Assembly (NCBI GenBank): GCA_029256575.1
Contig: JAQSXR010000021.1
Coordinates: 17,125-81,124 of the forward strand
Reading direction: 5' to 3'
Length of the DNA stretch: 64,000 nucleotides
DNA from: Clostridiales bacterium
GTDB taxonomy: Bacteria; Bacillota; Clostridia; Lachnospirales; JAQSXR01
Within the stretch, counting starts at the first letter, position 1, and every line of letters begins with the position of its first letter. Shown here in pieces: positions 39,475 through 41,745 of the stretch. The notes beneath the pieces were generated by a model. It searched no databases and had not been told where the DNA came from. It saw only the letters and a list, made by a program, of their open reading frames with translations. Made by a program: the position numbers and the translations under genes.

Positions 39475-40182
39475 TTATAAAGACCCTTTCTTCGCTGTTA
39501 GAGTGAAGGTTTTTGGGATCCCTTTGTCATATTGAGGGCAGGAGAAGTTTGGTTCTTCGGTTAAGGAAGTTATTATTAAACCAGATTGCGCAACGGCAGT
39601 TACGATTTCCCCGAGATTCCATTTGCGAAGATAGACCTTTTGAGTTTCTCCCTCTGGCATGTATTTTGCAAAAGATATTTGACTCTCAACAAGGGAGGTA
39701 TCAAAGTAATCCCCATCAACTTTGTGTTTTCTAATCTTAGCAGTAGTTCTCGTTAATTCTGATTCTGGTAAAGCAATAACATTTTCCATTAGATAACGAA
39801 TATTAACACCAGCAGATTCAGCTAGTTCAAGAGCATATCTTTTATTCCCTTCGGAAAAATCAATTACAGTAGCATCTGCTCCAAGCAAGGCAAGAGCAAC
39901 CGATTTCGTTCCATTAGAACCCATCAAGTTTGCAATCTTACTCCCTTTAATTTGAGGTATTTTTTCATTGATAATGGATAAGAATTTTTCTGGGTTATTT
40001 CTTAACTTAACAGCAGCTTCTTCTGGAGAACCAAATTTATTAACCCATGCTTCATAAGTAAGGTTATTCCATGCTTTTTCATTTGAGTCATCACAGACTT
40101 GATTTATATCAAATGAAAATGATTTTTTATCTTTAATATGCTTGAAATGGCTAAATAATTCGAAATGACATCTTATCTTCAA
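39475..40182 (-). CDS. Class I SAM-dependent methyltransferase, apparently internally deleted
   Basis: AWNNLTYEAWVNKFGSPEEAA; KIANLMGSNGTKSVALALLGADATVIDFSEGN; central strands missing after ALPESELT. Confidence 0.65.
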   Translation of the reverse strand: MKIRCHFELFSHFKHIKDKKSFSFDINQVCDDSNEKAWNNLTYEAWVNKFGSPEEAAVKLRNNPEKFLSIINEKIPQIKGSKIANLMGSNGTKSVALALLGADATVIDFSEGNKRYALELAESAGVNIRYLMENVIALPESELTRTTAKIRKHKVDGDYFDTSLVESQISFAKYMPEGETQKVYLRKWNLGEIVTAVAQSGLIITSLTEEPNFSCPQYDKGIPKTFTLTAKKGSL

Positions 40183-40390
40183 AATACTCCACGGACAAAT
40201 TCTTATTTTTGAAGTAATTCTCTAACTCAGAATAAAACAAGTCCACATCACAATCGGTAGTAAGTTTTTCTATCCAAAAACTCTGTCCACCACATGCATC
40301 TCGTAGATGAACCTTAAGACCTACAGATTTTTCTTCAAAATTGCGATTTAGTTCTATTAATTCGTTAAACGATACTATTTTCATAAACAT
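40151..40390 (-). CDS. RDAC family small protein
   Basis: 79 aa containing VHLRDACGGQSFWIE. Confidence 0.7.
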   Translation of the reverse strand: MFMKIVSFNELIELNRNFEEKSVGLKVHLRDACGGQSFWIEKLTTDCDVDLFYSELENYFKNKNLSVEYFEDKMSFRII

Positions 40391-40431: not shown

Positions 40432-41493
40432 TTAAAATACACCCTTACCGCTTCGCTGGGACTTAGAAAATTTCTTCATTGACTGAGACTTTTTCTTGTT
40501 ATCTTTTTCTCTTTTTTGTGCATATCGTATTTCCTTTTGTAATTTCAAGTAATTATTCCATCTTGATTCGGTTATAGAGCCATTTCTTAGTGCTTCACGA
40601 ACGGCACAACCAGGTTCTAGATTGTGCTTGCAGTCATGGAATTTACATAGGGATACAAAATCTTCAATTTCTGAAAAGGCTTCACTTATTCCGATACTTG
40701 CATCCCACATTCCAAGTTCACGCATTCCAGGGGTATCAATAATCATAACATGGTTATCAAGTTCAATTAATTGCCTATGCGTAGTGGTATGTCTACCGCG
40801 GCTATCATCTTCTCTGATATCATTAACTTTCATAACATCATCTCCCAATAAGGCATTAACAAGGGATGATTTTCCTACACCAGAAGAACCTAGAAGAACA
40901 AAAGTCTTACCTGGCTGCATATATTCATTAATCCTATCCATACCCAAACCAGTATAGGTGCTGATTGGTATTACGTCAACACCAATAGCTACTTGCTGGC
41001 TTGAATTTATCTGTTCGGAAGGGTCAACGCATAAGTCTGCTTTCGTCAGTACAACAACAGGAGTTGCTTTGCTTTGCCATGCAGTTGCTATATAGCGCTC
41101 CATTTTGCCAATATTAAAGTCATAATTCAAAGAAAGCATAATAAATACGTAGTCAAAATTGGTAGCCACAATCTGCTCTCCACGGCCCTTATCTGGGTCT
41201 TTCCTTGAAAAGTATGATTTGCGTTCCAAAACTCTGTGAATAATATGGTGATCCAATCCATTGTGCTTTATTAATACAAAATCACCTATTGCGGGATAGT
41301 CTATATTACCATCTTCTGAATAAAAGATCGAGCCCTTCAATCTAGCTGAACCTGTGCCTAAATCACTTATTACTTTATAAACTTCACGATGTACTTCAAT
41401 AATTCTTGCAGGGATTAGCCCTGAAGCTTTTTCACTCTCTGAAATCTGTTTTTCAAAAAAACCATTAAAACCATAATTAAAAATATCTGACAA
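40432..41493 (-). CDS. rsgA: Ribosome small subunit-dependent GTPase A (long-type)
   Basis: Circularly permuted GTPase: TKADL; LLGSSGVGKSSLVNALLGDD; DTPGMRELGMWD; CKFHDCKHNLEPGCAV; TTG start after aaggagg. Confidence 0.9.
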   Translation of the reverse strand: MSDIFNYGFNGFFEKQISESEKASGLIPARIIEVHREVYKVISDLGTGSARLKGSIFYSEDGNIDYPAIGDFVLIKHNGLDHHIIHRVLERKSYFSRKDPDKGRGEQIVATNFDYVFIMLSLNYDFNIGKMERYIATAWQSKATPVVVLTKADLCVDPSEQINSSQQVAIGVDVIPISTYTGLGMDRINEYMQPGKTFVLLGSSGVGKSSLVNALLGDDVMKVNDIREDDSRGRHTTTHRQLIELDNHVMIIDTPGMRELGMWDASIGISEAFSEIEDFVSLCKFHDCKHNLEPGCAVREALRNGSITESRWNNYLKLQKEIRYAQKREKDNKKKSQSMKKFSKSQRSGKGVF

Positions 41494-41499
41494 ATTAAT

Positions 41500-41640
41500 C
41501 CTCCTTACCCTAAAAAGGGTACAAAAAAACACGCCTTCATGCGTGCTCCAAAATAAGATTCACGAAAGGTTACGGGTAGTACTATTTGATTATTAAAACC
41601 ACCATTTTCAAGTTTTTCATAAAACATACACCCTTTCGTT
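41500..41640 (-). promoter_or_regulatory. Candidate attenuator with leader ORF upstream of rsgA
   Basis: Leader ORF 41627-41505 (MFYEKLENGGFNNQIVLPVTFRESYFGARMKACFFVPFLG) or 41620-41582 (MKNLKMVVLIIK); terminator cacgc-atgaag-gcgtgttttttt; competing pairing ccttt-cgtg : cacg-catg-aagg. Confidence 0.7.
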
Positions 41641-41745
41641 TTCAGATAATTTGATTATAATACCATGGTTTACAACTGTCAAGGCATAACTTTAGCATAT
41701 GATTGATATAATTCAAAACTACCAATCATATGCATACGGAACTAC

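Follow-up and report, generated by a model that had tools for sequence, protein, structure and literature searches.

The rsgA paralogue on the minus strand of the window (the whole stretch of 64,000 nucleotides analysed here) is preceded by a leader that we interpret, from sequence comparison, as a ribosome-mediated transcription attenuator induced by stalled ribosomes, a reading to which we assign a probability of about 0.8. A short leader ORF with its own Shine-Dalgarno (SD) sequence lies upstream of an intrinsic terminator, as in attenuators of the vmlR, ermK, and hflXr kind. Regulation of this kind is already known, with the vmlR and hflXr leaders as precedents. No attenuator of rsgA or mutS2 is described in the literature that we searched, mostly papers available without subscription, and the leader class is not in Rfam.

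Architecture of the Leader

The original prediction, a four-segment attenuator controlling an rsgA paralogue, is supported by the comparisons described below, and its elements were found on the minus strand at the positions predicted. The principal features are as follows.

41654..41682, minus strand: sigma-70 type promoter, TTGACA-17-TATAAT, matching the consensus at 12/12 positions
41632..41639, minus strand: segment 1, ACGAAAGG, the anti-antiterminator half, with the leader SD inside it and an 8-bp complement to segment 2
41582..41620, minus strand: leader ORF of 12 codons, MKNLKMVVLIIK, with an SD-spaced ATG at 41620 and the stop codon TAG at 41584-41582; conserved in relatives
41561..41569, minus strand: segment 2, CCTTTCGTG, inside the conserved AACCTTTCGTGAAT (41571-41558) and near-invariant in homologues
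41534..41545, minus strand: segment 3, CACGCATGAAGG, which would pair with segment 2 as the antiterminator and also supplies the 5' arm and loop of the terminator
41523..41546, minus strand: intrinsic terminator (segments 3:4), GCACGCATGAAGGCGTG plus T7, a perfect stem with a T-run, at the same position in homologues
41505..41627, minus strand: alternative ORF of 40 codons, reading through the terminator, its stop codon inside the rsgA SD
40432..41493, minus strand: rsgA paralogue of 353 codons, with a TTG start and the SD AAGGAGG; PF03193, 174.9 bits; TIGR00157, 165.9 bits

The promoter, which is perfect and lies directly upstream of the attenuator, was absent from the original prediction. 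RNA initiated there (41682-41654) would carry the 12-codon leader ORF, with the leader SD within segment 1. In an undisturbed cell the leader would be translated fast, segments 1 and 2 would pair, the 3:4 terminator would form, and transcription would stop before rsgA. A ribosome stalled within the leader, or at the leader start, would cover segment 1, leaving segment 2 to pair with segment 3, so that no terminator would form and the rsgA paralogue would be transcribed. The natural signal is most likely a ribosome-targeting antibiotic or a similar cause of stalling. What the analysis shows directly is that the elements exist and are conserved, that 1:2 pairing covaries, and that further ribosome-related genes use this leader. 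We infer the switching, what induces it, and any protection afforded by the RsgA paralogue; induction by antibiotics is a reasonable supposition.

Chance accounts for some of these features better than for others. An 8-bp inverted repeat such as that of segments 1 and 2 is held by 17% of dinucleotide shuffles, which makes it weak evidence by itself; a perfect-stem terminator with a T-run occurs in 0.1% of shuffles, and the two together in 0/3000. The leader folds with a z-score of only -1.7. Because the chance test of the 1:2 repeat and the folding z-score are weak, it is the strong conservation seen in comparisons that carries the case for an attenuator. The leader in the window is a reduced form, without the GGCA...TGCC hairpin and the second terminator of many relatives and with a shifted stop codon. 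At gathering score the window leader matches no Rfam 15 family, and the only matches at 20 related loci were a T-box and a tRNA, neither of which is the attenuator leader. A TTTTTATGCCC-like tail recurs 3' of the last terminator T-run at two further loci (L220 and L223) and in many leaders of rsgA paralogues; the window has the version TTTTTTTGTACCC.

Translation attenuation might add to termination if the hairpin ACCC-TTTTT-AGGGT, predicted at about 41521-41506, after the terminator and just before the SD, limited access to the rsgA start. This would be compatible with transcription attenuation as the best explanation, and the vmlR leader has a second layer of this sort in its SL-4 hairpin (PMC9226507), but here the hairpin stops at the first A of AAGGAGG, leaving the SD uncovered, and the terminator with its T-run is better conserved than the hairpin. 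We consider such an addition rather unlikely.

The Conserved Leader Peptide

Two ORFs compete for the role of leader, and both are present as originally described. The 40-codon ORF, which had been put forward as the leader, is probably not the conserved one; that place goes to the 12-codon ORF, originally named as an alternative. We rejected the longer ORF on SD spacing and because the conserved starts and V-x-x-x-stop pattern in homologues fit the shorter one: the start of the 40-codon ORF lies a short 4 nt past the final G of ACGAAAGG, whereas the spacing of the 12-codon ORF is normal.

The pattern was counted at 52 loci, namely main-clade paralogues with at least 300 nt upstream, including relatives, so that the rows are not independent. 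Of these 52 rsgA-paralogue loci, 33 have an ORF of 8-18 codons that is preceded by an SD and closes with V-x-x-x-stop, compared with 1.9% of shuffles and 0/13 canonical rsgA genes; at about one-third of the 52 a leader was not recognisable by the criteria used. The leader in the window falls outside the 33 because its stop codon lies further on. MKNLKMVVLIIK nonetheless carries the GGTG core common to its relatives, and the GGT core allows the 12-codon ORF to be aligned with leader ORFs from 38 homologues, GG being invariant across the 39 leaders of this alignment (A2).

The conserved valine is encoded by GTG in 28/33 leaders, compared with 313/1212 valine codons in the genes, and is preceded by G in 31/33. 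This bias suggests that the V codon may be under nucleotide as well as peptide constraint. The commonest leader length is 10 codons. The V-V or V-I near leader codons 7-8 is reminiscent of IAVV in the ErmA leader, and its position agrees with that of the ErmA motif as well, but we treat the resemblance only as a lead. IAVV is the stalling motif of the ErmA leader (PMC12698558).

Pairing and Its Covariation

Covariation of the pairing in homologues was a check named with the original prediction, and segments 1 and 2 do covary: their own partners outpair permuted ones in energy with p = 5e-5 (36 leaders, in a permutation that ignores relatedness). Both sides are altered in the mutS2 leaders, where segment 2 is CCTTTTTT and the SD regions are matching, AAAAAGG-like ones. 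Within the rsgA leaders alone the same test gives p = 0.17, which is not significant because segment 2 hardly varies there. An exact copy of AACCTTTCGTGAATACTG (segment 2) occurs seven times in 392 genomes, in all 7 cases upstream of an rsgA paralogue; of three further copies with one mismatch in the same genomes, one precedes an rsgA paralogue, and the remaining two lie elsewhere without a recognised leader. In the genome to which the window belongs, the exact AACCTTTCGTGAAT has only two copies, one upstream of each rsgA paralogue.

Segment 3, the other half of the proposed antiterminator, varies by clade (CACATCGAATAGG, ACGATTTAGG, CACGTTTGG, and CACGCATGAAGG) yet remains complementary to segment 2, and 2:3 pairing has a mean z of -1.11 in 28 leaders, compared with +0.07 for control terminators. 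The permutation test of this pairing, from which relatedness was not removed, is weak: restricted to the rsgA leaders it gives p = 0.02, and for all 36 it gives 0.52.

The leader was also folded in both states. In the window leader, 2:3 pairing is predicted when the transcript stops before segment 4 and the start region is masked, but it is also predicted when that region is unmasked, and the free energies computed for the window sequence, with the transcript ending at segment 3, do not favour 1:2 over 2:3. Since the unmasked strand also folds as 2:3, the order of synthesis must matter; the free energies, for their part, require a kinetic OFF state. We also rejected a small hairpin of AGUA with UACU around segment 2, which showed no convincing covariation by eye in 33 leaders and is absent from the window.

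The leader might instead be an ordinary constitutive one, in which a weak terminator allows a fixed, unregulated readthrough. That a recognisable leader is absent from some paralogue loci would suit such a view, but without function one would not expect a conserved leader ORF, a conserved segment 2, and a covarying 1:2 helix across deeply diverged loci, and we regard it as very unlikely.

The rsgA Paralogue

The gene controlled by the putative attenuator had been identified as an rsgA paralogue, and the profile matches bear this out: the protein has the RsgA GTPase domain, with the G1, G3, G4, and zinc motifs intact. It is one of 3 RsgA proteins in its genome, 1 canonical and 2 paralogues, and each of twelve further genomes has 1 canonical and 1 paralogue copy. 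In the tree, the paralogue in the window branches apart from canonical RsgA, and 12 of 13 canonical copies cluster away from the leader-bearing paralogues; the thirteenth (can_L155) is uninformative owing to a frame error. None of the 28 loci passing the leader criteria falls in the canonical part of the tree. A scan of genome contigs for homologues returned mostly distant Verrucomicrobial ones.

The second rsgA paralogue of the same genome (G000:C39, L098; also L003) has a fuller leader, MIKLMKLSEVTNI, with a post-stop hairpin and two terminators. In the window, two same-strand genes come after the rsgA paralogue (39478-40390). One encodes an RDAC family protein and the other a 235-aa protein that matches nothing in Pfam or NCBIfam; next to the other rsgA paralogues examined there are no relatives of either.

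Leaders of the Same Class before Other Genes

Two sequence models were used to find further leaders, one of segment 2 plus the terminator (R1), searched in 395 genomes, and one of the leader ORF region (R2), searched in 206 genomes. Both models are of sequence only because MAFFT misaligned the terminator stems and RNAalifold returned no pairs. Besides rsgA paralogues, the R1 matches precede mutS2 in about 10 genomes and a TetM-like gene in one. One leader-associated MutS2 was checked (TIGR01069, 569 bits), and the others are named by close likeness to it. The R2 matches precede rsgA paralogues, a GNAT/kinase-like gene, an ABC transporter gene, and genes of the CD3324 family. The kinase part of the GNAT protein scores just below the Pfam cut-off and the TetM-like protein below the equivalog cut-off, so we do not claim either as a resistance gene. 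The plasmid and viral collections held no relevant match to the leader.

At eight mutS2 loci the homologous leader has an ORF that is mostly GTG-started and the segment 2 CCTTTTTT. MutS2 splits collided ribosomes, and Bacillus subtilis without mutS2 is hypersensitive to chloramphenicol, tetracycline, and erythromycin (PMC10897456).

The range of target genes bears on two further explanations. Under the first, the leader would be a ligand-binding riboswitch or would be bound by a protein, for example RsgA controlling itself, and the short ORF would be incidental. Conservation of segment 2 and of the AACYGAATA core after the stop goes beyond the needs of simple pairing, as it might in such an element. 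The SD-led ORF with V-x-x-x-stop is itself conserved, however, and the switching helix includes the leader SD; the presence of the same leader before genes of unrelated proteins argues against autogenous control by RsgA in particular, and we hold this explanation to be less likely again than a constitutive leader. Least probable is amino-acid attenuation, in which the leader would sense a shortage of charged Val, Ile, or Leu tRNA as in ilv-leu operons: V, I, and L are abundant in the leader peptides and V is the conserved residue, but the runs of regulatory codons are short, the codon and preceding-base bias at the conserved valine (28/33 and 31/33) suggests a nucleotide constraint too, and the targets are rsgA, mutS2, the TetM-like gene, and similar ribosome factors or possible resistance genes rather than amino-acid genes.

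Comparison with Known Attenuators

The closest precedents for a ribosome-mediated attenuator of this layout control genes that act on the ribosome. In the leader of vmlR, an ABCF resistance gene of B. subtilis, drug-stalled ribosomes bring about readthrough (PMC9226507). As in the window, a uORF lies in the anti-antiterminator and is followed by an antiterminator and an intrinsic terminator, although the uORF of vmlR has 3 codons, the target gene is another one, and the comparison is one of layout rather than of sequence homology. The hflXr leader rli80 of Listeria monocytogenes has a 14-aa leader ORF and alternative terminator and antiterminator structures (PMC6310831). It shares with our leader a short leader ORF, the alternative structures, and a target homologous to a housekeeping ribosome-acting factor; in contrast, its peptide has the RLR macrolide motif and not V-x-x-x-stop, and its target is HflX-like and not RsgA. 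The uORFC-6-1 motif before hflX in Bacillales likewise combines a conserved uORF and a structured leader upstream of a ribosome-rescue gene, but it has an RLR motif and its structure lies wholly downstream of the uORF start (PMC8632094).

The likeness originally proposed to leaders of ribosome-protection genes gains substance from the homologous leaders before mutS2 and the TetM-like gene. The tetM gene is described as being regulated by transcriptional attenuation (Su et al. 1992, as cited in PMC5418344). The tet(M), tet(O), and tet(S) leaders have a short SD-led ORF (MRQGIIK or MRQGILK), a post-stop hairpin, and a segment with ACCTTT or ACTTTT in it that pairs strongly with the 5' arm of the terminator, as segment 2 is predicted to do with segment 3 here; tet(M) and tet(O) also have a CCC-containing tail 3' of the terminator. 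They differ in their leader peptide and in that 1:2 pairing by the SD is weak. An nhmmer search against the tet leaders gave E values of 0.016 for tet(M) and 0.067 for tet(O), with 1.3 for the best shuffle, and the best match of R1 on the tet(M) leader (E 0.038) is at another place in that leader. Sequence homology to the tet(M), tet(O), and tet(S) leaders is thus only suggestive.

A Candidate Ribosome-Stress Regulon

One leader RNA common to several ribosome-acting genes defines a candidate ribosome-stress regulon. It is possible, though we hold it as a tentative proposal that may well be wrong, both that a single widespread class of leader RNA ties ribosome stalling to rescue and protection genes (rsgA paralogues, mutS2, the TetM-like gene, the GNAT/kinase gene, and the ABC transporter gene) and that the RsgA paralogue is an unrecognised resistance factor that protects the 30S subunit. 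If so, with a leader of 10 codons, the commonest length, a ribosome that halts close to the stop codon could keep another one waiting at the start codon, and the switch would sense queued ribosomes instead of a single drug. The rsgA paralogues, hitherto named by homology only, might then act under translation inhibition, possibly as resistance factors. In Streptomyces, an RsgA paralogue is among the paralogues activated by WblC that have been discussed in connection with tetracycline induction (PMC7157823). The leader signature may be usable for finding more such genes.

Some loci depart from the simple arrangement of leader and target. A small gene of the CD3324 family (Mor-like) comes right after an attenuator-class leader at two loci (L261 and L257); in the L261 genome it sits between the leader and an rsgA paralogue, and L129, by sequence, also has an rsgA paralogue following. 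At L208 (G156:C121) a second copy of segment 2 and the terminator of the L011 leader occurs about 5 kb downstream, where a leader ORF was not recognised and a large predicted membrane protein follows. At a further locus (L195) an attenuator-class leader precedes the apparent remains of a broken rsgA paralogue.
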